Shown: positions 5,984 to 18,436 of the stretch, piece after piece | Position numbering within the stretch: position 1 is the stretch's first letter | Layout of the letters: every line of letters starts with the position of its first letter | NCBI RefSeq assembly: GCF_002847505.1 | Contig: NZ_MXAV01000004.1 | Span: 62,001 to 126,000, forward strand | Length of the DNA stretch: 64,000 bases | DNA from: Acidithiobacillus marinus | GTDB lineage: Bacteria > Pseudomonadota > Gammaproteobacteria > Acidithiobacillales > Acidithiobacillaceae | Reading direction: 5' to 3' | Notes under the pieces: model-generated | What the model saw: the letters and a program-made list of their open reading frames with translations, nothing else | What the model was told of the DNA's origin: nothing | The model's database searches: none | Position numbers and translations under genes: made by a program

Positions 5984-7041
5984 ATTTACTGTTACTGCGC
6001 CTCAGTTCTCTGGGGGATGTACTTCATACCTTGCCCGCCATTTCCGATCTCGCGATCCATCGTCCCGATCTGCAGGTAGACTGGCTGGTAGAATCTGCTT
6101 TTGCGCCCATTGTGGCTTGGCATCCTGCTGTGCATAAAGCTATTCCTTTTTCTCTGCGCGGCCTCAAAAAAAAACCGCTGGCTGCTCCGCATTCCCTCCA
6201 TCACTTGCGCAAGGAGCTACGGGCCAGCCGCTATGACATGGTTCTGGATGCCCAGGGATTGTATAAAAGTGCCCTATTGGCGCGTCTGGCGGGTGCGCCG
6301 GTCATGGGATTGGATACGCAAAGCGCTCGGGAGCCGGGGGCTTCGCGCTTGTATCAGCGGCAATTTTCAGTATCTTGGTCCAGCTCTGCTATTGCGCGCA
6401 ATCGTCAATTTTTTGCCCTGGCCCTGCAATATGCGCTGCCCAGTACATCTCCCGACTTTGCCTTGGCCTGTCGCCGCTCACAATGGCAGGAGCAAGCATT
6501 GGATGATGCATTACAGCCCTTTGTTTGCAAACCCTTTGTGATCGGTTTTCACGCGACCTCTGCTGCATGGAAAACCAAGGAATGGCCTGAGGCCCATTGG
6601 AAAGTCATCGCCTCCCGGTTGGCGGAGCAAGGCTGGAATCTGTTGTTGCCTGCTGCCGATGAAAGAGAACGCCAACGGGTGGGTCGTATTCAAAGCGGTG
6701 CCGATAATGTGCTGGCTCTGCCGCAGCTCAGTCTGGAATTTTTGGCTAAAGTGATGAGTCGGGCGCAGGCTTTTGTAGGGATGGATACTGGGCTTTCCTA
6801 TCTGGCGACTGCACTAGGGCTAAATGGGGTGACGCTTTATGGACCCACTTCCGCCGATCGATTTTTCATAAAAAGTTCTCAACAAATCAGTTTGCAAAGC
6901 CCGCAGTCCTGTGCGCCTTGCGGCAAAAGCCGTTGCCCGTTGCCCGAGGCGCAAAATGGTCGGATACTCTGCCAGGAGGCGCTGGAACCTGAGCGTGTCT
7001 GGCTTGCTTTATCTTCCTTACTGGAGTCATCTGCCGCATGA
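5980..7041 (+). CDS. waaC: Lipopolysaccharide heptosyltransferase I
   Basis: The protein has 353 residues. It begins LLLRLSSLGDVLHTLPAISDL, the WaaC N-terminus, and contains VLDAQGLYKSALLARLAGAP and the C-terminal FVGMDTGLSYLATALG with YGPTS, all hallmarks of heptosyltransferase I. It transfers L-glycero-D-manno-heptose from the ADP-sugar to Kdo2-lipid A on the cytoplasmic side of the inner membrane. A Cys-rich stretch (CAPCGKSRCPL) near the C-terminus is also usual in this family. It is coupled by ATGA overlaps to the GT2 gene before it and the phosphatase-like gene after it. Confidence 0.93.
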   Translation: MNLLLLRLSSLGDVLHTLPAISDLAIHRPDLQVDWLVESAFAPIVAWHPAVHKAIPFSLRGLKKKPLAAPHSLHHLRKELRASRYDMVLDAQGLYKSALLARLAGAPVMGLDTQSAREPGASRLYQRQFSVSWSSSAIARNRQFFALALQYALPSTSPDFALACRRSQWQEQALDDALQPFVCKPFVIGFHATSAAWKTKEWPEAHWKVIASRLAEQGWNLLLPAADERERQRVGRIQSGADNVLALPQLSLEFLAKVMSRAQAFVGMDTGLSYLATALGLNGVTLYGPTSADRFFIKSSQQISLQSPQSCAPCGKSRCPLPEAQNGRILCQEALEPERVWLALSSLLESSAA

Positions 7042-7718
7042 ATTCGCCTCTCAGACTCTTGCCGGAAGAACGACGCAGGTATCGGCGTCATCAGTTCTGG
7101 ACCGATCACGGCATTTTTCGCGAGTGCTTTTATGCCAATTTTCATGAAATGGTTCCAGGCGTATTTCGTTCCGCCCAGCCTTCACCCCGGCAGTTAAAGC
7201 GATGGCAACAACATCATGGTTTGAAAGCCGTGTTGAATTTGCGGGCACCTGCTCCCCATGAGCCCCATTATCGCCTGGAACAGGAAGTGTGTGACGCTAC
7301 GGGAATGCAGCATATTGTTCTGCACGGTTTTGGTTCCCGTGATCTGCCCGAAAAAGAACGTTTGTTGCAAGCTATGGAACTTTTGACCGAATTGCCGAGA
7401 CCTTTTTTGCTGCACTGCAAATCGGGGGCGGATCGCGCCGGTTTCATGAGTGTGCTGTATATGCATCTGGTCATGGAGCAGCCCATGGAGATCGCCCAGC
7501 GCCAGTTGCGACTCTGGCCTTTCGGCCACATTCGTCATGCCAATACCGGAATACTGGACTGGTTTTTCAGCAGTTATCGTCAAGCTCTGGGGAATGAACC
7601 GGATCTCACCCTGCGCCAGTGGATTGAGCGCGATTACGATCGCCTTGCGCTGCTGAAAAGTTTCCGTCCCTGGTATCGTCTGGATTGGCTGACTGATCGG
7701 CTGCTCCATCGCGAATGA
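7038..7718 (+). CDS. Dual-specificity / tyrosine phosphatase-like protein
   Basis: The protein has 226 residues. It contains the Cys phosphatase loop HCKSGADRAG (Cys127 and Arg133 by my count, the C-X5-R motif) and an upstream GVFRSAQP block typical of small bacterial DSP-like phosphatases. Asp102 in GSRDLPEKE could be the general acid. The C-terminal third is basic and rich in aromatic residues. No signal peptide or clear membrane span is seen. It overlaps waaC and waaA by four bases on each side, which suggests a role in LPS core assembly, for example dephosphorylating a glycolipid intermediate or controlling a tyrosine-phosphorylated transferase. The substrate is unknown. Confidence 0.8.
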   Translation: MNSPLRLLPEERRRYRRHQFWTDHGIFRECFYANFHEMVPGVFRSAQPSPRQLKRWQQHHGLKAVLNLRAPAPHEPHYRLEQEVCDATGMQHIVLHGFGSRDLPEKERLLQAMELLTELPRPFLLHCKSGADRAGFMSVLYMHLVMEQPMEIAQRQLRLWPFGHIRHANTGILDWFFSSYRQALGNEPDLTLRQWIERDYDRLALLKSFRPWYRLDWLTDRLLHRE

Positions 7719-8971
7719 TGACACGCCGGATGTATGCAGGAATCCTTTTCCTGTTGACGCCGCTGCTCTGGATTTTTACCCGGTGGCGGGGCTGGCGACG
7801 TCCTCCCTACCGGGATAGATGGTGGGAACGCTTCGGATGGGGCGACATCCACCATGACCGCCCTATCTGGATACACGCGGTCAGCGTAGGTGAAGCCATT
7901 GCCGCAGTCCCACTCGTTCATGCGCTGCAAAAACGCTACCCGAACATTCCGATTCTGGTGACCAGTACGACGCCTACGGGCGCAGAAATTGTCGCCCAGC
8001 GCCTCGGCACGAGCGTGCGCCGCCATTACCTTCCCTATGATACTTCTGCGGCGATGCGGCGTTTTTTGCAACGCCAGCAGCCGCGTGCCTGTCTCATCAT
8101 GGAAACGGAAATCTGGCCGAATTTATGCTACTGGGCTGCACGGTTTCAGTTGCCGGTATTGTTGATCAATGCCCGTTTATCCCCGCGCTCGCTGAAAGGA
8201 TATGGACGCTTTTCGCGGCTGTTCCGTCCCGCGCTTGCCAGCATGACCGCTGTGGCGGCTCAAAGCCCCGAAGATGCGGAGGCCTTTCGACAACTCGGAG
8301 CGGCAAAGGTGCTTGTCATCGAAAATATCAAATATGACCTTCCGGAACCGCTGGAAGCGCTGGAGAAGGGGCGCTTCTGGCGGCAGCATCTGGCCACCCG
8401 TCAGGTTTGGGTGTTTGCCTCCACCCACGCGGGTGAAGAAAAAATGGCGATAGATGTTTTCAAGCAGTTACAGATAGCTTGGCCTCACCTTTTGCTGGTG
8501 CTGATCCCCCGCCATCCCCATCGTCGGGATACTGTAGAAGTGGCGCTGCAAATGGCCGGGGTTTTTTATGCGCTACGTTCTCAAGAGATTGAAGTGGAGA
8601 GTAAAAACGTCTTGCTGGTAGACACCCTCGGAGAGGTGATGGATTTTTATGCAGCCGCTGATCTGGTGACGATAGGCGGCAGTTTTGTCCCTGTTGGCGG
8701 TCATAATCCTCTGGAGGCCGCCGTACTCTCCTGCCCCATTATTTTTGGTCCGTACATGGAAAATTTTCGGCGCATTGCCCGGGATATGCTGGACGGAAAT
8801 GCAGCCGTTCAGGTGGATGATGCCAACGCTTTGGCGCAACAGTTACAGCAGTGGTTGCAGCACCCGCAAAGCGCTCAGGAACAGGGAAACAGGGCGCTGG
8901 CCTTTGTCCAGCAGCAGCGTGGCTCCCTGGAAAAAATTATGCAGATTCTGGACGATCTGGATTTGTCCTAG
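7715..8971 (+). CDS. waaA: 3-deoxy-D-manno-octulosonic acid transferase (Kdo transferase)
   Basis: The protein has 418 residues, the normal WaaA length. An N-terminal membrane anchor (about residues 5-22) is followed by IWIHAVSVGEAIAA with the conserved catalytic Glu, VTSTTPTGAEI, METEIWPNL, and the C-terminal IGGSFVPVGGHNPLEAA with the CMP-Kdo pocket. It transfers one or two Kdo residues from CMP-Kdo to lipid IVA, the first core step, which precedes WaaC. The TAG stop at 8969 lies inside the left arm of the long palindrome at 8966-9164, so transcription probably ends there. Confidence 0.95.
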   Translation: MMTRRMYAGILFLLTPLLWIFTRWRGWRRPPYRDRWWERFGWGDIHHDRPIWIHAVSVGEAIAAVPLVHALQKRYPNIPILVTSTTPTGAEIVAQRLGTSVRRHYLPYDTSAAMRRFLQRQQPRACLIMETEIWPNLCYWAARFQLPVLLINARLSPRSLKGYGRFSRLFRPALASMTAVAAQSPEDAEAFRQLGAAKVLVIENIKYDLPEPLEALEKGRFWRQHLATRQVWVFASTHAGEEKMAIDVFKQLQIAWPHLLLVLIPRHPHRRDTVEVALQMAGVFYALRSQEIEVESKNVLLVDTLGEVMDFYAAADLVTIGGSFVPVGGHNPLEAAVLSCPIIFGPYMENFRRIARDMLDGNAAVQVDDANALAQQLQQWLQHPQSAQEQGNRALAFVQQQRGSLEKIMQILDDLDLS

Positions 8972-9164
8972 CTCGGGCACCAGTCCTGGCAGATTTTTGC
9001 TCCAACGTCCCTTGCCTGTTGTTCTAGAGCTCATCCTGCTGTCAGGAGAGAACTCGCCCTACGGGCTCAAACAGCTCTCCTGACGGGCGCTGGATTTCGC
9101 CAAGAACAACAACGGCGCGGGCCAAAGTCGCTGCAAATCTGCCAGGACTGGTGCCCGAGCTAGG
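8966..9164. repeat. ~200-base imperfect palindrome between waaA and ovoB, probable two-way terminator or mobile-element relic
   Basis: The outer arms, 8966-8996 and 9134-9164, are perfect 31-base reverse complements. Inside them, an inner pair, GTCAGGAGAG (9041-9050) and CTCTCCTGAC (9077-9086), is again complementary, and the sequence between shows scattered complementarity (TGTTGTTCT with AAGAACAACA). The stop codons of both convergent genes (8969-8971 and 9160-9162) lie within the outer arms. A transcript from either side could fold into a very long hairpin. The structure resembles a MITE-like or REP-pair element. No poly-T tail typical of a simple intrinsic terminator is seen. Confidence 0.85.
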
Positions 9165-10320
9165 ACAGCAAAGCCTTCCGCAGACGCGACAGACCTTCCT
9201 CCAGAGTGGCTCTGGGCGTGGCAAAATTCAGGCGTACAAATCCTTCGCCTCCGGGCCCGAAACTGGGGCCAAGATTGAGTCCGAGCCCAGCTTCAAGAAG
9301 ATTCTCCTGAATGGATGTGTCGTCGCCATAGCTGCTGACATCCAGCCAGGCCAGATAGCCGAACTCGGGAATGCGATAGCCTAGATCGGGTAATTCCTGA
9401 CGCAGAAATTCCTGCATGAACTGGGCATTGGTCAGTAGATACTGGCGCAGTGCCGTCTGCCATTCTGTCCCGTGTTGCCAGGCGCTGGTCATGGCTTTCA
9501 GAGCACAAGTGTTGGTCTGATGGATCTGGCTGCGATACAGCTCATCCCGAAACATCTGGCGCAGTTCCGGATCGGGAATGATGGCTATGCCCCCCCCAAT
9601 GCCCGCAATGTTGAAGCTTTTGCCAGCCGAGCTCAGCAGGACGGAGCGGGAAGAGAAAACCGGAAAGGGAATATGTTGGGCGTAACTGAGATCCGCATGA
9701 ATTTCATCGCTGACTACCACGCACCCGGCAGCGCTGCACATATCCGCCAAACGCTGCAATTCTTCAGTAGACCAGACCCGTCCTACGGGATTATGGGGCG
9801 AACACAGCAATAACAGTCGTGAATGCTTCAGCGCCTTTTCCAGTGCTGACCAATCTATGGAGTAACTATTATCTGCACCGCGCTGGAGTGGCGCGAGGCG
9901 CAGTTCCCGAGCATTTTTCTGCACGGCCGTCATGAACGGCGGATAAATAGGCGGCATGATGATGACGCTATCCCCTGGCTGGGTAAAAGCCCGGACTGCG
10001 GCAAACAAGGCGGGAACCACGCCGCTGATACTGCCGGTGGCACCAGGTACTGGACGCCAGTCGTGGCGGGCTTCCATCCAGTCTTCGGCGGCCCTTACCA
10101 TAAGCGGCCCATCGCTGGGATAGCCAAAAATCGGGTGTTCGAGTCGTTGCTGTAATGTCGAGAGGATACATTCCGGAATGGCAAAATCCATGTCGGCAAC
10201 CCACATGGGTAAGACTTCCCCGCCAAAGCGACGGGCGGCGTCATCCCATTTCAGGGAGCCAGTGCCCATGCGTTGAATGGGCGTGTCGAAGTCGAAAATA
10301 CTTTCTTCCGGATATTTCAT
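9160..10320 (-). CDS. ovoB: PLP-dependent sulfoxide lyase OvoB (MalY/PatB-type C-S lyase)
   Basis: The protein has 386 residues with the MalY/PatB fold. Visible features are PMWVADMDF near the N-terminus, SDEIHADL (Asp205 for the PLP ring) and SSAGKSFNIAG with the Schiff-base Lys234 by my count. On its own it would be called cystathionine beta-lyase. Its ATG overlaps the stop of ovoA by four bases, and OvoB enzymes, which cleave the histidyl-cysteine sulfoxide to 5-thiohistidine, belong to this PLP class. I therefore infer it is OvoB. The alternative is a generic beta-C-S lyase in methionine metabolism. The stop lies in the palindrome. Confidence 0.8.
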   Translation of the reverse strand: MKYPEESIFDFDTPIQRMGTGSLKWDDAARRFGGEVLPMWVADMDFAIPECILSTLQQRLEHPIFGYPSDGPLMVRAAEDWMEARHDWRPVPGATGSISGVVPALFAAVRAFTQPGDSVIIMPPIYPPFMTAVQKNARELRLAPLQRGADNSYSIDWSALEKALKHSRLLLLCSPHNPVGRVWSTEELQRLADMCSAAGCVVVSDEIHADLSYAQHIPFPVFSSRSVLLSSAGKSFNIAGIGGGIAIIPDPELRQMFRDELYRSQIHQTNTCALKAMTSAWQHGTEWQTALRQYLLTNAQFMQEFLRQELPDLGYRIPEFGYLAWLDVSSYGDDTSIQENLLEAGLGLNLGPSFGPGGEGFVRLNFATPRATLEEGLSRLRKALLS

Positions 10321-12425
10321 AAGCGTTCCCAGAGTGTCACCTGTGCCAAGCTGTGCTGATATTTACGGGCAGTCTCCCGTATCACAAAGGGTAAATCCAG
10401 CGGGCTTTCTTCGCGCAAGCGGAAATAAGGCAATAAAATCTCTTTGAGAGCATCCAATGTCGTGTGATTTTCGCCATCTTTTTTGAAGCCTCCCAGCCAC
10501 TCGCTGCGGGGCGTATATTCCTCCAGCCAGGTGTAGGGAGAGGTGATGACCAGCAGGCCACCAGGCAGGATACGCTCGCGAATATCATCCAGAAACTTGC
10601 GGGGATGATGCAGGCGATCAATCAGATTGGCGGCAATCACCAGATCATAATCCCGATACAAGGGTTTGAGATTGCAGGCATCGGCCTGGAAAAAATGCAC
10701 ATGGTCAGCCGTTTCCCGCAGTCCCAGCGCCGCCAGATCGATGGTCTGGTAGCTGTTAAGATCGCCTTCTTCCGCCAAGGTATAGGAAAAATGTCCTCTT
10801 TCCCGCAACTGTACCCCCACACTGATGAAGCGCGCCGAAAAATCGAGGCCGGTGACGTCCGGGCAGTGTCGTGCCAGCTCAAAGCTGCTGCGGCCTACTG
10901 CGCAGCCAATATCCAGGGCTTTGCGCAGAGGTTTTCCGGCCCTTGCTTGTAGCGCCAGTTCCGCTACTGCCAAGGCAAAATTGGGGACCCCATAATAGTT
11001 TCGGCCGTAATGAAATTCGGCATACTGAGACACCAGCGCATCGCTTTCATAAATAGGGACATCGGGCAGAGCATTGGCAGAGTCCACATAACGAAATCCC
11101 GCGTGCTGAAAGAAATGACGACGGAAGGCATAACGGGCTTCACGTTGCATTTCATTTCCGAGGCTGATGAAGGAGCCTCCCTTGAGTAGATTATGTTGCT
11201 GATCAAAGGTCGGGACGGTGAAATCATCGTAAACCGGATGGACTTCAAAGCCAGGGAAAGGATAAATCGGGGTACAGGTCCATTCCCAGACGTTGCCCAT
11301 CAAGTCATAGAAATCCCCCTGGGGAAACTGGTCCACTGGACAGGGTGAGCAACCGGCCATCAGGCCAATGTTGGCCGGAACATGGTCTTCCCAGCTATCA
11401 CTGTCATCCAATCCGCTGAGATCACGCAGATGGCGCCATTCTTCTTCACTGGGCAAGCGGAGTTCCGCACCGCTCCGGGCGGATTTCCAGCGACAAAAGG
11501 CGGCTGCTTCCAGGGCGTTGACTTCAACAGGCCAGTTCCAGGGCATGGGCCGCTCTTCAGCCAGCAATCGCAACTGCCAGCCTGTGGCGTGAGGTACCCA
11601 GAAGCTGGGATGTTCCGCCCGACTGAAGCGCCGCCAGGCATCGCCCTCCGCGCTCCACCAATCCGGATTCCGATAAGCACCGTCTTCTACAAAAGCGAGA
11701 TATTCTTCGTTACTTACCAGAAATTGACTGGCTTTGAACGGTTGCAGGGCGATTTCGTGGTTGCCATATTCGTTATCCCATCCATATTGGCGGTCATCCC
11801 GGGCCTTGCCGAGATGGACTTCCCCCCCCGCTACCGGCAAGAGCCGGTTAACCGGGGCCGTACCCGCCTGATTCCAGGGCGTGAAAGCGGCGACGGGAGC
11901 TACCTGTGACAAGGGCAATTGCCGTATCAGTACCGAACTGGTTTCCAGATGAATGTTTTCGTGTTCAATCCCCATGAGAATGACCCACCAGGGGGAGTCC
12001 CAGGTAATGGGGAGTGTCAGGGGTAATTCGGTAATCAACTGATCCACCATCTGCCGTACTCGGTGACGATACTGACGGACACTTTCTACCGTCGGCCAGT
12101 CATAATGCGTTTCGTCCAGATCGTCCCAGGACATTTCGTCCACGCCGACAGCAAAAACGGATTCCAGATGTGGATCGAGGCGGGCGCTGATCAGTCCGGC
12201 AAATTGCAGCTTGTTGACATAAAAAGTGGCCGTATGACCGAAGTAAAAAATCAGGGGATGGCGCAAAGGAATGGCTTTTTCCATCCAGGCCGCAGCGTCT
12301 TGCAGGTGCTCAAACAGGGATTCATACAGGGAGAAGGTTTCGTGGAACACCCTGCGAATTTCGTCCCGTTTTTGTTCAGCATTCTCACCATCCAGACGAA
12401 GTGGAGTAATGCGTGTACGCGCCAT
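10317..12425 (-). CDS. ovoA: 5-histidylcysteine sulfoxide synthase / 4-mercaptohistidine N1-methyltransferase
   Basis: The protein has 702 residues and three domains, as in known OvoA. An N-terminal DinB-like iron domain carries H-X3-H-X-E (HENIHLE, His155 and His159 by my count), with another His in YFGH (64) as likely third ligand. A central FGE-sulfatase-type domain includes LRLPSEEEWRHL and GNVWEWT. A C-terminal class I methyltransferase has KALDIGCAVGRSS as SAM loop. OvoA joins cysteine to histidine C5 with oxygen, then methylates the product to ovothiol A. A strong AAAAAGGGG ribosome site precedes the ATG. EgtB was considered but lacks the fused methyltransferase. Confidence 0.9.
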   Translation of the reverse strand: MARTRITPLRLDGENAEQKRDEIRRVFHETFSLYESLFEHLQDAAAWMEKAIPLRHPLIFYFGHTATFYVNKLQFAGLISARLDPHLESVFAVGVDEMSWDDLDETHYDWPTVESVRQYRHRVRQMVDQLITELPLTLPITWDSPWWVILMGIEHENIHLETSSVLIRQLPLSQVAPVAAFTPWNQAGTAPVNRLLPVAGGEVHLGKARDDRQYGWDNEYGNHEIALQPFKASQFLVSNEEYLAFVEDGAYRNPDWWSAEGDAWRRFSRAEHPSFWVPHATGWQLRLLAEERPMPWNWPVEVNALEAAAFCRWKSARSGAELRLPSEEEWRHLRDLSGLDDSDSWEDHVPANIGLMAGCSPCPVDQFPQGDFYDLMGNVWEWTCTPIYPFPGFEVHPVYDDFTVPTFDQQHNLLKGGSFISLGNEMQREARYAFRRHFFQHAGFRYVDSANALPDVPIYESDALVSQYAEFHYGRNYYGVPNFALAVAELALQARAGKPLRKALDIGCAVGRSSFELARHCPDVTGLDFSARFISVGVQLRERGHFSYTLAEEGDLNSYQTIDLAALGLRETADHVHFFQADACNLKPLYRDYDLVIAANLIDRLHHPRKFLDDIRERILPGGLLVITSPYTWLEEYTPRSEWLGGFKKDGENHTTLDALKEILLPYFRLREESPLDLPFVIRETARKYQHSLAQVTLWERL

Positions 12426-12506
12426 GTTTGCCCCTTTTTGCGATGACTGTTGAGGATATGTCCGACACCCACAAGATACCGTCCGGTCGGATGTTTGGGA
12501 AGAGGG

Positions 12507-13547
12507 TCAGGGTTTGCCAGTGGTTTTCAGCATCCTCTGCGCCAGAGGCGGCATGATCAACAACATCATCAGCAAACGTATGAGATGCACGCCCAGTACA
12601 AAAAGCACATTGCCATGGGCAGCCATACTGACGGCGACAGCGGCATAGAGCGCTCCGGGTGCCGTCGCCAGATATCCGTCCAGGTCACTGACGCCAACCA
12701 TGTGAGCCAGAAAAATCCCGAGCAGGGCACAAAGTAGGTTCAGACCGACAATGATCAGCAATGCCCGGGGAATCAGGCGGAAGTGTTGGCGAAGTCGATG
12801 TATGGACATTTGCAGCCCGGCCTGCCAGCCAATGAGCAGATAAGCACCCTCCAGAACCGGACCGGGAATGGCTTGGGTGGGGCTGATTTTCAGCAAGCTG
12901 AGTAGCAGCGTAACGAGCAAAGGGCCGAGTAAGTAGGGGGCGGTGATGTGGATTTTACGGGCCAGCCAGACGCCCATGGGTCCGCCCAACAGTATCAACA
13001 AGAGGCTGCCGCCCCAGGATACAGCTATGGATTTGCCTGACAGATCTGCTGGACTGCCGTGATGATCCTGAAAAAAAAACAGAACTACCAAAGGAAGACT
13101 GACCATGACCAGAATAACCCGCAGGTATTGCATGATGGCCACTAATCCCACGTCGGCGGCATATTCCTGGGCAATGGCCGTGATGCCCGCCGCTCCCCCG
13201 GCAGTCATGGAAAGCAGACCGGTACTGGCCTTGATCTGCGCCCAGCGGCTGAAAAGCACTCCCGAAATCAGGCTCAATATCAAGGTTGCGGCTGTGACCA
13301 GCAAGATGGGCAGCCAATGGCCGGAAATGGCGCTCAAGGCAGCGCTGGTAAACATCAGGCCAATAGCTATACCCAGGATGCTTTGTCCTGCCCGGGAAAA
13401 GTGACGGGGATAAGTCAATCCGCCCAGGCTATTGATGGCGATGGCTGTTATGACCCCGGCAAAAAGGGGTGCGGCGGGAATCTGTTCAAGCGTGAAGCTA
13501 TAGCTCAGCAGTAAGCTCCCCAGCACCAGCAGGATCCAACGTCCCAT
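12507..13547 (-). CDS. AbrB-family membrane protein (duplicated-domain putative transporter)
   Basis: An integral membrane protein of about 346 residues with roughly ten hydrophobic segments and two similar halves, as in the membrane AbrB/ammonia-monooxygenase-related family (not the AbrB transcription factor). Typical blocks are GGLTYPRHF, LLSMTAGGAAGITAIAQEY and GYLATAPGALYAAVAVS. I chose the ATG at 13547 because the first membrane segment starts there. A GTG at 13640 would add a 31-residue Arg-rich tail and overlap trmL by 34 bases. Substrate is unknown. It lies between trmL and ovoA on the same strand, so involvement with ovothiol is possible but unsupported. Confidence 0.75.
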   Translation of the reverse strand: MGRWILLVLGSLLLSYSFTLEQIPAAPLFAGVITAIAINSLGGLTYPRHFSRAGQSILGIAIGLMFTSAALSAISGHWLPILLVTAATLILSLISGVLFSRWAQIKASTGLLSMTAGGAAGITAIAQEYAADVGLVAIMQYLRVILVMVSLPLVVLFFFQDHHGSPADLSGKSIAVSWGGSLLLILLGGPMGVWLARKIHITAPYLLGPLLVTLLLSLLKISPTQAIPGPVLEGAYLLIGWQAGLQMSIHRLRQHFRLIPRALLIIVGLNLLCALLGIFLAHMVGVSDLDGYLATAPGALYAAVAVSMAAHGNVLFVLGVHLIRLLMMLLIMPPLAQRMLKTTGKP

Positions 13548-13606
13548 TGGACTGGCAGTGATCCCCAGAACATGCTGAATAAGTGGTCTGCGCCGGGGAT
13601 TCTGGT

Positions 13607-14083
13607 TCAAGTGCCGCCTTTGAACCCCAGCTGTCGCCACGCCTCAAAAACGCCCACCGCACAGGCGTTGGAAAGATTCAGGCTGCGTTGTCCCGGGCGC
13701 ATGGGTAAGCGTAATACCTGCCCGCCCGGCAGGCTATCCAGTATATGCGAAGGGAGCCCCCGCGTTTCCGGCCCAAAGAGCAAGGCATCGCCTTCCTGGA
13801 AAAGCGTCTGGTGATGCAGGTTTTTCCCCCTGGTGCTGAAGGCAAAAATCCTTGCTCCTGCCAGTGCATCACGACAATGTGCCCAGTCCGGATGGCGCAA
13901 GACCTCGGCAAATTCATGATAATCCAGCCCGGCGCGACGCAGGCGACGATCATCCCAGGCAAAGCCCAAGGGTTCGACCAGATGCAGCCGGGCGCCCGTG
14001 TTGGCACAGAGACGGATGACATTGCCCGTATTGGGCGGGATTTCCGGCTCAAAAAGAATGACATGCAAAAGGGTATCAGGCAT
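13607..14083 (-). CDS. trmL: tRNA (cytidine(34)-2'-O)-methyltransferase
   Basis: The protein has 158 residues, the full length of the minimal SPOUT enzyme TrmL (YibK). Characteristic stretches are ILFEPEIPPNTGNVIRLCANTG at the N-terminus, FGPETRGLP, and LRLPMRPGQRSLNLSNACAV at the C-terminal trefoil knot that binds SAM. It methylates the ribose of the wobble base in certain leucine tRNAs. It starts inside the comF gene (eight-base overlap), so comF and trmL are cotranscribed. Confidence 0.93.
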   Translation of the reverse strand: MPDTLLHVILFEPEIPPNTGNVIRLCANTGARLHLVEPLGFAWDDRRLRRAGLDYHEFAEVLRHPDWAHCRDALAGARIFAFSTRGKNLHHQTLFQEGDALLFGPETRGLPSHILDSLPGGQVLRLPMRPGQRSLNLSNACAVGVFEAWRQLGFKGGT

Positions 14084-14900: not shown

Positions 14901-16070
14901 ATGCCTGATAGAGCAGAAAATGACTGGAGTACGCAGCTGGCGGATATCCGTCGCCAGGGGTTGTGGCGGGAATTGTTGCCCCTGCAACCCGATCCCGCTG
15001 CCGACCACCCCCAATTTATAGACGGCGATGGACGTGCATTAATCTCTTTTGCCAGTAATGACTATCTTGGTTTGAGCAGGCATCCTGCCTTACAGCGAGC
15101 GGCTATTGCTGAAATAGAAAGTAGTGGTCTGGGCGCGGGAGCAGCCCCGCTGCTGGGTGGCGAACGTCCGGTGCATCAGGCGCTGGCTGCAGATCTGGCC
15201 GACTGGCTGGGCGTGGAAGCAGTTCTGCTGTTTGGCAGTGGTTATCTGGCAAATCTGGGCATTATTTCAGCCCTGGTCGGCCGCCATGACCGGATTTATG
15301 CCGACCGCCTCAATCATGCTTCCCTAGTGGATGGTGCCCGTTTGTGCGGGGCGCGTCTGCAGCGCTACCGCCATGGAGATATGGCGCACTTGCAGCAGCT
15401 ATTGGCACGAGGTGGTTCAGGGCGGGCCTGGATCATCAGCGACGGAGTTTTCAGTATGGACGGTGACCTGGCGCCGCTGCCTGAGTTGGCGTCCCTTGCG
15501 CGCGAGTATCATGCCCGGATCATTCTGGATGAAGCCCATGCTTTGGGGGTACTCGGTGATCAGGGCAGAGGAACCCTCGCTCACTACCATCTGGGTAATG
15601 AAGACGTAGCGGTGATCATGGGCACCCTGAGCAAGGCTTTTGGAGTGTATGGCGCCTTTGTGGCGGGTAGTCAGGATCTGATTGATCTGCTGCGTAACCG
15701 GGCACGCAGTTTTATTTATCATACAGCCTTGCCGGCGGCCCTGGCGGCAACGGCACGGGTTTCCTTGCAGATGTTGCGAGCGGGCAAAGACCGCCGCGCC
15801 CGCTTGCATACCCATCGTCTTATGTTGCGCGCCGAGCTTCCTGATGCCCCCTGGCTTCCCAGTGAAACGCCCATTCAGGGGCTGGTTTTAGGCGATGCCA
15901 CAAGGGCTATGCAGGTGTCCGGGCAACTGCGTGAGGTTGGCCTATACTGCCCCGCTGTGCGCCCTCCGACGGTTCCCCAAGGCAGCGCCCGCTTGCGGAT
16001 TACCCTCAGTGCCGCGCATCGGCGCGATGATCTACAGGCCCTGGTGACGGCCCTCCGGGAGATATTATGA
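14901..16070 (+). CDS. bioF: 8-amino-7-oxononanoate synthase
   Basis: The protein has 389 residues. It is a PLP enzyme of the alpha-oxoamine synthase family, condensing pimeloyl-ACP with alanine. Clear motifs are SFASNDYLGLSRHP, GAGAAPLLGGERPVH, DEAHALGVLGDQGRG (Asp and His around PLP) and GTLSKAFGVYGAFV with the PLP Lys. It opens the bioF-bioH-bioC-bioD operon. The ATG at 14901 gives the usual N-terminus ending in GLWRELL. Other in-frame starts would remove conserved sequence. Confidence 0.95.
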   Translation: MPDRAENDWSTQLADIRRQGLWRELLPLQPDPAADHPQFIDGDGRALISFASNDYLGLSRHPALQRAAIAEIESSGLGAGAAPLLGGERPVHQALAADLADWLGVEAVLLFGSGYLANLGIISALVGRHDRIYADRLNHASLVDGARLCGARLQRYRHGDMAHLQQLLARGGSGRAWIISDGVFSMDGDLAPLPELASLAREYHARIILDEAHALGVLGDQGRGTLAHYHLGNEDVAVIMGTLSKAFGVYGAFVAGSQDLIDLLRNRARSFIYHTALPAALAATARVSLQMLRAGKDRRARLHTHRLMLRAELPDAPWLPSETPIQGLVLGDATRAMQVSGQLREVGLYCPAVRPPTVPQGSARLRITLSAAHRRDDLQALVTALREIL

Positions 16071-16083
16071 GTCTGGAGAAACC

Positions 16084-16857
16084 ATGAGTTGGTTTCGGGA
16101 GCAGACCGGGCAAGGACCCACTTTGTTGCTCTTGCATGGCTGGGGTATGGAGAGCCGGGTTTTTGCCGGCTGGCGTACTCTTTTGGAGCCTTATTTTACT
16201 TGCATCAGCTATGATTTGCCGGGCCATGGGCGCAGCCCCTGTACGGCCACTGGCATGCATTGGCCGGAGTTGCTGCAGCAGCTGCAGGACCTGCTCTCCC
16301 GGGAAGCGACTCCCCCCATTATATTGGGTTGGTCTTTGGGTGGTCTGCTGGCGCTGGGTTCAGCTCTGAGTCAGCCCCAGGGCCAGTCCGGGCTTTTGAA
16401 GGGATTGGTACTGATGGCCAGTTCGCCGAGTTTTCGCCAGCGCCCTGATTGGTTGGCGGGCATTCCTGCTTCGACCCTCGAAGAGTTCGGTCGGCGTCTG
16501 CAAACGGATCCCCAAGGTACCCGCAAACGCTTTCTGGCATTGCAGGTTTTGGGAGATCCACAAGGACGGCGGGCGCTCGACGGCATGGCCGCGTGGCCCA
16601 GCCCGGATACAGCCTGTCTGGCTGATGGATTGAAGCTACTCCAGGAGGTGGATTTGCGCGATGATATGGAGACTTTGACTTTGCCGACGCAGGTGATTCA
16701 CGGCGCCCAGGACCGTATTGTGCCTCCCGAGGCGGGGTTTTATTTGCACCAGCATATTGTCGGCAGTCAACTGACCATGCTTGAACATGCCGGGCACGCG
16801 CCTTTTTTATCCCGGCCAGAACAATGTCGGGATGCGCTTTTGGAGTGCTGGATATGA
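16084..16857 (+). CDS. bioH: Pimeloyl-[acyl-carrier protein] methyl ester esterase
   Basis: The protein has 257 residues with an alpha/beta-hydrolase fold. LLHGWGMESRVF gives the oxyanion region, LGWSLGGLLALG holds the nucleophile Ser, HGAQDRIVPP holds the acid Asp, and EHAGHAPFLS the His. BioH removes the methyl group from pimeloyl-ACP methyl ester, ending the BioC-started chain. It starts 14 bases after bioF, with GGAGA upstream, and overlaps bioC by ATGA. Confidence 0.93.
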   Translation: MSWFREQTGQGPTLLLLHGWGMESRVFAGWRTLLEPYFTCISYDLPGHGRSPCTATGMHWPELLQQLQDLLSREATPPIILGWSLGGLLALGSALSQPQGQSGLLKGLVLMASSPSFRQRPDWLAGIPASTLEEFGRRLQTDPQGTRKRFLALQVLGDPQGRRALDGMAAWPSPDTACLADGLKLLQEVDLRDDMETLTLPTQVIHGAQDRIVPPEAGFYLHQHIVGSQLTMLEHAGHAPFLSRPEQCRDALLECWI

Positions 16858-17735
16858 ACTCCTCTTCCACGACAGAAGATTTTCTGGAAAAGCGCGCCAT
16901 TCGCCGTGCCTTTGACAAGGCTGCAGGCAGCTATGAGGCCAGCGCGGTACTCCAGGATCAGGTCGGTCAGCAATTACTGGAACGTCTGGATCTGGTCAAG
17001 CTTGAACCCCAATGGATTCTGGATCTGGGCAGTGGCACCGGCCTGCAAAGCCGCCGACTTAATGCCCGATATCCTAAAGCGCGGATATTGGCCCTGGATC
17101 TGGCCGCCGGCATGCTCCGGGTGGCGCGCCAACGTAAAAGCTGGCGGCAGCGGCAGCATTACTGTCAGGGTGATGCGGAGCATTTGCCCCTGGCCACAGC
17201 GTCCATGGATTTGCTCTACGCCAATATGTCCATCCAGTGGTGTAATGATCTGGACCGGGTACTGCGTGAGTTTGCCCGGGTTTTGCGCCCTGGTGGACTG
17301 TTGATGTTCAGCACCCTGGGCCCGGACACGCTGACTGAACTGCGGCAATCCTTTGCCAGCCTCGATAGTCATCCTCACGTCAGCCAGTTCCTGGATATGC
17401 ACGATATTGGTGATGCGCTGGTGCGTCAGGGCTACGAAATGCCGGTAATGGATGTAGAGCATTACCAGCTGACCTATGCAAGCGTGGACGATCTTTGGCA
17501 GGATCTGCGCAAGGTGGGGGCTACTAATGCCAGAACAGAGCGATCTCGGGGTTTGTTGACCCCAGCGCGATTGCAAAAACTGCGAGATACCTATGAAACC
17601 TTCCGTAGTCAGGGAAGATTGCCGGCTACTTATGAAGTGGTTTACGGCCATGCCTGGAGTAGCGGGCCACGACAGCTATCCCGCGAAGATGGCGCAGTGG
17701 TCCTGCCCTTGACCCGCATCCCGAGACGCTCATGA
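16854..17735 (+). CDS. bioC: Malonyl-[acyl-carrier protein] O-methyltransferase
   Basis: I chose the ATG at 16854 (293 residues) because it overlaps the bioH stop as ATGA. The frame itself is open further upstream inside bioH. KRAIRRAFDKAAGSYEASAVLQ is the BioC N-terminus and WILDLGSGTGLQSR the SAM-binding motif. RVLREFARVLRPGG and FSTLGPDTLTELRQSF are also typical. BioC methylates malonyl-ACP so that fatty acid synthesis can build the pimeloyl chain. It sits between bioH and bioD with four-base overlaps on both sides. Confidence 0.95.
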   Translation: MNSSSTTEDFLEKRAIRRAFDKAAGSYEASAVLQDQVGQQLLERLDLVKLEPQWILDLGSGTGLQSRRLNARYPKARILALDLAAGMLRVARQRKSWRQRQHYCQGDAEHLPLATASMDLLYANMSIQWCNDLDRVLREFARVLRPGGLLMFSTLGPDTLTELRQSFASLDSHPHVSQFLDMHDIGDALVRQGYEMPVMDVEHYQLTYASVDDLWQDLRKVGATNARTERSRGLLTPARLQKLRDTYETFRSQGRLPATYEVVYGHAWSSGPRQLSREDGAVVLPLTRIPRRS

Positions 17736-18436
17736 ACACGTTGCCTCACCGCAAAAGTGCTTCTGGCCTGCGGCCACGCGGACTGTTCATTACTGGCACC
17801 GATACCGGCGTTGGTAAAACGGCCGTCACGGCCGCTCTGGCGCAACGCTGCCGGAAAGAAATGCCCCGAGTTGCGGCATTAAAGCCCATTGTTTCCGGTA
17901 TGGAAGCTTCCGGGCAGTGGACAGATGTGGAAATACTGCGCGCCGCCTCGACACCGCCCCGCTCTTTTGCGGAAACCTGTCTCTATGCCCTGGACCCGCC
18001 CATCGCTCCGCACTGGGCGGCGGCTCAAGCCGGACTGGTATTGAATCGCAGTCAGATTCATCAGTTTATCCAGTCGCAATCCGCCAGCATGGACGCCGTT
18101 CTGGTAGAAGGGGCCGGGGGCTTTCTTGTACCCCTGGGAGAGGACTGGGGGTTTGCCGATCTGGCCCGCGATCTGCAGTTTCCAGTACTGCTGGTGGTGG
18201 GTTTGCGACTAGGGGCCATCAATCATGCCCTGCTCAGCGTCGAGGCCATTATCGCCCGAGGTTTGCCCATGGCGGGTTGGGTGGCCAATCACCTCCAGAC
18301 TGATCTTGCCCCGGGGACGCTGGAAACATTGCAACGTCTCATGCCCATCCCCTGCCTTGGAGAAATCCCTTTTCAGGCAGCGGCATCCAGCGCCTGGAGA
18401 AGTCAGTTTTTGTCTCTTCCGACTGAATGGTATTGA
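17732..18436 (+). CDS. bioD: ATP-dependent dethiobiotin synthetase
   Basis: The protein has 234 residues. The P-loop GTDTGVGKTAVTAALAQ and the following ALKPIVSG with substrate Lys are diagnostic of BioD, which closes the ureido ring of dethiobiotin with CO2 and ATP. VEGAGGFLVPL is the second conserved block. It is the last gene of the bioFHCD unit. BioA is not in the window and BioB is encoded separately at 29604-30548. The 117 bases after it hold no obvious hairpin terminator. Confidence 0.95.
   Translation: MNTLPHRKSASGLRPRGLFITGTDTGVGKTAVTAALAQRCRKEMPRVAALKPIVSGMEASGQWTDVEILRAASTPPRSFAETCLYALDPPIAPHWAAAQAGLVLNRSQIHQFIQSQSASMDAVLVEGAGGFLVPLGEDWGFADLARDLQFPVLLVVGLRLGAINHALLSVEAIIARGLPMAGWVANHLQTDLAPGTLETLQRLMPIPCLGEIPFQAAASSAWRSQFLSLPTEWY

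Follow-up and report, generated by a model that had tools for sequence, protein, structure and literature searches.

The window, that is, the whole 64,000-nucleotide stretch of contig NZ_MXAV01000004.1 of Acidithiobacillus marinus that was analyzed, carries on its minus strand two adjacent genes, ovoA and ovoB, which together make ovothiol A, an antioxidant thiol of strong acidity, with a probability of about 0.86. The initial annotation had proposed a coupled ovoA-ovoB pair at 9160-12425, in which a pyridoxal phosphate (PLP) lyase overlaps ovoA by four bases. Both open reading frames (ORFs) were found at these positions, both proteins score over curated cut-offs, and the four bases 10317-10320 are shared by the two genes. 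The features of the pair are as follows.

10317..12425, minus strand: ovoA, 5-histidylcysteine sulfoxide synthase (DinB_2 + FGE-sulfatase) fused to a 5-thiohistidine N-methyltransferase (ORF, NCBIfam, Pfam, structure match)
9160..10320, minus strand: ovoB, PatB-type PLP-dependent C-S beta-lyase (ORF, NCBIfam, Pfam, structure match)
10317..10320, minus strand: overlap of ovoA stop (TGA) and ovoB start (ATG), four bases ATGA (sequence)

The ovoA ORF encodes 702 amino acids from an ATG start, as given in the ORF list of the window. Its sulfoxide-synthase half passes the NCBIfam model TIGR04344 (ovoA_Nterm) with 687 bits against a cut-off of 400, and residues 459-701 of the same protein match TIGR04345 (ovoA_Cterm) with 322.9 bits against 170, whereas the NCBIfam scores for EgtB (178.4 vs 360) and SenA (173.9 vs 420) both fall under their cut-offs. 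The proposal that OvoA holds all three domains was borne out by Pfam, with DinB_2 at residues 28-162, FGE-sulfatase at 195-447 and the methyltransferase from about 495. Judged by sequence comparison, family scores of this size are far beyond chance. The best match among solved structures is PDB 8khq, itself an OvoA (5-histidylcysteine sulfoxide synthase / 4-mercaptohistidine N1-methyltransferase), aligned over residues 6-702 with 902.7 bits; it is the same two-enzyme fusion over its full length, and the His and Tyr residues of the window OvoA are identical in the alignment. 8khq comes from another organism, while the window OvoA belongs to an acidophile genus and is known from sequence alone. 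The EgtB-IV sulfoxide synthases 8vig and 8vih are homologous to the N-terminal half (325.6 and 299.7 bits), but their chains lack the fused methyltransferase part; the window OvoA lies under the EgtB family cut-off.

The ovoB ORF, 386 amino acids with an ATG start, matches the NCBIfam model TIGR04350 (C_S_lyase_PatB) with 473.4 bits against a cut-off of 340, and its closest solved relative is the cystathionine beta-lyase PatB, PDB 6qp3 (302.7 bits). The match to TIGR04350 covers profile positions 1-383 of 384, so truncation of ovoB by the palindromic repeat that holds its stop codon was rejected. From the aligned motif SSAGKSFN, K234 is the candidate PLP lysine. OvoB is thus a full-length relative of the PatB lyases; the difference is that the Acidithiobacillaceae lyases form a clade separate from the lyases beside other OvoA genes, and we infer from linkage to ovoA that the window enzyme cleaves histidylcysteine sulfoxide. 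The ATGA overlap occurs in seven genomes, namely that of the window and those of six relatives (L018, L021-L025).

An H-X3-H-X-E iron site had been claimed for OvoA. The motif is present as HENIHLE at 155-161, but its glutamate probably does not belong to the iron site. Because iron in EgtB-type enzymes is bound by three histidines, E161 is probably not a ligand, and the ligands are most likely H64, H155 and H159, the further histidine H64 serving as the third. H64, H155, H159 and E161 are invariant in all 99 aligned sequences (the window plus 98 loci with full-length OvoA, some genes being represented twice), and Y399 is kept in 98 of them, the remaining one having a gap. Y399 aligns with the Tyr at chain position 378 (manual count) of EgtB 4x8b, which we take to be Tyr377 in EgtB numbering. 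Passages of PMC10903977 equate EgtB Tyr377 with Tyr417 of Erwinia OvoA.

The claim that the pair covers the known steps to ovothiol A holds at the level of sequence, from the gene identities and the completeness of the pathway, while the reactions, the C5 regiochemistry and the product are predicted from characterized relatives. By this analogy, the N-terminal iron module of OvoA would use O2 to attach the cysteine sulfur at C5 of the imidazole ring of histidine, yielding 5-histidylcysteine sulfoxide; OvoB would cleave the sulfoxide into 5-thiohistidine, pyruvate and ammonia; and the C-terminal module of OvoA would methylate the ring nitrogen in an S-adenosylmethionine-dependent manner. The same order, OvoA producing the sulfoxide from Cys and His, OvoB 5-thiohistidine and the methyltransferase half ovothiol A, is described in passages of PMC12631010 and PMC10903977. 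The ovothiol disulfide would then be re-reduced by glutathione, which keeps ovothiol reduced according to a portion of PMC8470380. Both gshA and gshB were found in the window genome (655.9 and 397.7 bits). As read from nonsynonymous (dN) and synonymous (dS) substitution rates, ovoA and ovoB are under purifying selection: against G009, dN is 0.026 and dS 0.486 for ovoA, and 0.054 and 0.411 for ovoB, and against three further genomes dS runs from 1.2 to 2.2 and dN from 0.09 to 0.15.

OvoA over cut-off was found in 27 of 29 genomes of the Acidithiobacillaceae, the two others being 85% and 61% complete, and in all 23 with at least 90% completeness and at most 5% contamination. Nearly the whole family therefore seems, from gene content, to keep the ovothiol pathway. 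In Acidithiobacillus ferrivorans DSM 22755 (JAAOMR010000060.1), identity to the window OvoA is 80.057% and to the lyase 64.966%. Across a sample of the class, OvoA over cut-off occurred in 22 of 370 genomes, three of them from Acidithiobacillaceae, leaving 19 of 367 elsewhere. Neither of two genomes from the other family of the order has OvoA over cut-off, with sub-threshold matches only (117 and 94 bits); these two sister genomes presumably belong to the Thermithiobacillaceae, which we take to be neutrophilic. In the NCBI taxonomy this is the sole other named family of the order. Restriction of OvoA to acidophiles was rejected, since Nitrosomonas, Marinobacter, Methylophaga and Halomonas are among the named relatives in the best 80 of 575 loci, the set used for relatives of OvoA.

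Of the 27 family genomes with OvoA over cut-off, 23 have the lyase gene next to ovoA. A tree of 66 lyase sequences (midpoint rooting; five family loci omitted as duplicates, shortened copies excluded) joined 26 Acidithiobacillaceae copies in one clade with support 1.0 and placed six remote copies in a clade of their own (0.996); G021 and G023 carry both the adjacent and the remote type. Because the genomes that have no linked ovoB keep a remote PatB, a paralogue can apparently take over the lyase step, as far as gene content tells. At one locus (L066) ovoA, at 6001-8127, ends straight against waaA at 8139, ovoB being gone and trmL and waaA kept. Two OvoA proteins from Bacillota-labelled metagenome-assembled genomes (L069, L070) were nested inside the Acidithiobacillaceae clade with support 1.0 and 0.994, reflecting either gene transfer or a mislabelled bin; the L069 contig has 69% G+C and no ovoB beside OvoA.

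Several observations weigh against the assignment of the pair to ovothiol A. Four family genomes (G022, G025, G026, G028) hold ovoA with no adjacent ovoB, the PatB over cut-off lying elsewhere. Among the best 80 of 575 OvoA loci, ovoB neighbours ovoA at 48 and is missing at 26, while six could not be judged; with no linked lyase in 4/27 family genomes and 26/74 judgeable loci, the two genes need not be linked. In G026 (L029, around 2973) the OvoA reading frame breaks between its sulfoxide-synthase and methyltransferase parts, and in the 69%-complete assembly G027 it is interrupted; these may be assembly errors or real losses. By its alignment scores, the sulfoxide-synthase half also resembles EgtB-IV enzymes closely, so that the regiochemistry is read from the family score together with the fused methyltransferase, and the ovothiol product itself is a prediction from the genes. 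A first rival idea is that the adjacent PatB is a cysteine-conjugate or cystathionine beta-lyase of general use rather than one reserved for ovothiol, so that after OvoA any lyase of the PatB type would suffice. The naming of 6qp3 as a cystathionine beta-lyase and the four genomes that carry a remote paralogue in place of an adjacent ovoB fit this idea, and part of PMC12631010 describes OvoB as a beta-lyase of broad specificity. Nevertheless, it is judged unlikely: most family genomes keep the two genes adjacent, a translational overlap joins them in seven, and in the window genome no second protein passes the PatB cut-off, the next best reaching 143 vs 340 bits.

The EgtB-IV kinship of the sulfoxide-synthase half could instead mean that OvoA yields an ergothioneine-type C2 product. 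This was judged unlikely on the family scores, the EgtB model being missed and the OvoA N-terminal model far exceeded, and the fused OvoA-type methyltransferase half above its cut-off makes it highly improbable. It is further weakened because the single FGE-sulfatase match found in the 2.90-Mb genome is OvoA itself and no EgtD was found there at E 0.001, a weak negative, since none of 14 control genomes held EgtD over cut-off either, which leaves the sensitivity of the search in doubt. The chief cellular activity might also be thiol oxidation, from cysteine to cysteine sulfinate, with little ovothiol formed. The OvoA of Methyloversatilis thermotolerans is reportedly bifunctional, thiol oxygenase as well as sulfoxide synthase, according to the title of Cheng et al. 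2022, which PMC10903977 cites. A pure oxygenase would need neither the methyltransferase half nor the linked lyase, and against it stands the retention of the former and, for most genomes of the family, of the latter. Retention of the Tyr points the same way, an argument softened by a passage of PMC10903977 in which this residue is not strictly required for sulfoxide synthesis. On this evidence thiol oxidation as the main activity is very improbable, and synthesis of ovothiol A is the preferred reading of the pair.

The suggestion that the DNA came from a likely acidophile was correct, the source genus being Acidithiobacillus. According to a portion of PMC8470380, the SH group of ovothiol has a pKa of 1.0-1.4, compared with 8.7 for glutathione. 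In an acid cell interior or periplasm, ovothiol would thus stay a reactive thiolate and glutathione would be almost wholly protonated; an acidophile might keep ovothiol because its low pKa leaves mostly thiolate well below neutral pH. From this a rather doubtful proposal can be drawn, namely that the Acidithiobacillaceae acquired or retained ovothiol as a core thiol in connection with acid life. Under iron and peroxide stress it would then be the partner that withstands acid in a couple of ovothiol and glutathione. We can only infer an antioxidant role here, and the distribution of OvoA makes the link to acid life only suggestive, because it comes from one phylogenetic contrast with two genomes and many of the listed OvoA owners are not known acidophiles.

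Both ovoA and ovoB are known families in a known pathway; the genus is one for which no report was found. Searches pairing ovothiol or OvoA with Acidithiobacillus found no paper, most subscription papers lying outside the search, and those on ovothiol in acidophiles or on 5-histidylcysteine sulfoxide synthase returned none on Acidithiobacillus as judged by title and start of abstract. Since the subscription literature is mostly uncovered and automatic pipelines have probably labelled these genes, first discovery is not claimed. Little is known on the use of ovothiol, according to part of PMC12631010. If ovoA and ovoB act as predicted, bioleaching bacteria would make a second low-molecular-weight thiol that is chemically active at acid pH, which would change the study of their redox and metal tolerance and provide a bacterial system in which deleting the genes could reveal what ovothiol is used for. 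The four genomes that have naturally lost the linked lyase would allow a test of which lyase the pathway needs.

The genes and the repeat that flank the pair are as follows.

7715..8971, plus strand: waaA, lipid IV(A) 3-deoxy-D-manno-octulosonic acid (Kdo) transferase, convergent with ovoB (NCBIfam, Pfam)
8964..9167, no strand: palindromic repeat between convergent waaA and ovoB, perfect 33-nucleotide (nt) arms at 8964-8996 and 9135-9167, core of about 144 nt
12507..13640, minus strand: AbrB-duplication membrane protein, upstream of ovoA (NCBIfam, Pfam)
13607..14083, minus strand: trmL-like tRNA methyltransferase, slightly below two trmL cut-offs (NCBIfam)

The gene waaA adjoins ovoB or ovoA in other genera as well, and the trmL-like gene is upstream of ovoA in several relatives. 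Between ovoA and the AbrB-like gene lie 81 nt. A simple scan for sigma-70-like promoters across 12300-12700 found none, so that co-transcription of ovoA with the upstream genes is possible. Farther away, at 14901-18436 on the plus strand, BioF, an alpha/beta hydrolase, a methyltransferase and an AAA_26 protein are consecutive and resemble a biotin synthesis operon, in which the last three presumably take the roles of BioH, BioC and BioD.

The stop codons of waaA and ovoB sit inside the arms of the palindromic repeat (8964-8971, 9160-9167), and the 222-nt strand folds at -129.4 kcal/mol with a z of -11.4. An Rfam scan of 8800-9400 gave nothing over the gathering score, the best being Archaea_SRP with 24.3 vs 96.5 bits. 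The window genome holds eight long copies of the core, and core matches were found in 7 of 17 genus genomes, 38-43 each in five of these; the counts include short matches and are possibly undercounts, as at most 40 candidates per genome were scored. The remaining ten genomes gave no core match at E 0.001. In 93 copies (L002-L009, L141-L205, L207-L226, the same site in different genomes being counted separately), the core edges carried exact inverted repeats whose longest stretch measured 8-36 nt, reaching at least 13 nt in 84, as against none of 1,860 control places. Within copies the arms paired at 89.4% of 27 positions (n = 78; in 84 of the 93 the core was complete and the flank long enough, and six of these were dropped for a repeated outer flank), in comparison with 55.0% when right arms were shuffled among copies (standard deviation 1.2; maximum of 500, 58.5%) and 23-38% in the arm sliding control. 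Between copies, the arms were on average 54% identical and equal-length cores 94.5%.

Of 22 orthologous sites at which both flanks, at least 100 nt each, were matched between genomes, 11 held the core in both orientations. At the ovoB-waaA site itself the core is inverted between the window genome and G009, and 4 of 27 arm positions differ, two of the four changed identically in both arms. Among 57 looser orthologous pairs, 29 had the same orientation and 28 were inverted, and 144 of 533 changed arm positions matched in both arms while 389 did not, a rough count owing to register shifts between copies. Template switching between the arms during replication would fit these observations, because flipping of the loop and copying of one arm onto the other would arise together. 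Rival explanations are an invertase that flips the core and selection for a bidirectional terminator hairpin; hairpin selection would not by itself invert the core. Invertible DNA is an established type of element, as are small palindromic mobile repeats. Among the matches listed in one literature search on them, Acidithiobacillus thiooxidans was not mentioned, and among those listed in a second, the lone mention of Acidithiobacillus came from work on Klebsiella fimbriae. Two G015 sites (L234, L235) have neither arms nor core, so the arms would be part of the inserted unit there, and this weakens the idea of a core jumping into ready-made hairpins. At three other sites (L230-L232) only 20-28 nt of the core are left, resembling deletion remnants. 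In G016 (L040) the repeat is absent and ovoB and waaA meet in a 14-nt palindrome, in which changes of the penultimate codon, relative to other genomes, are mirrored in both genes.

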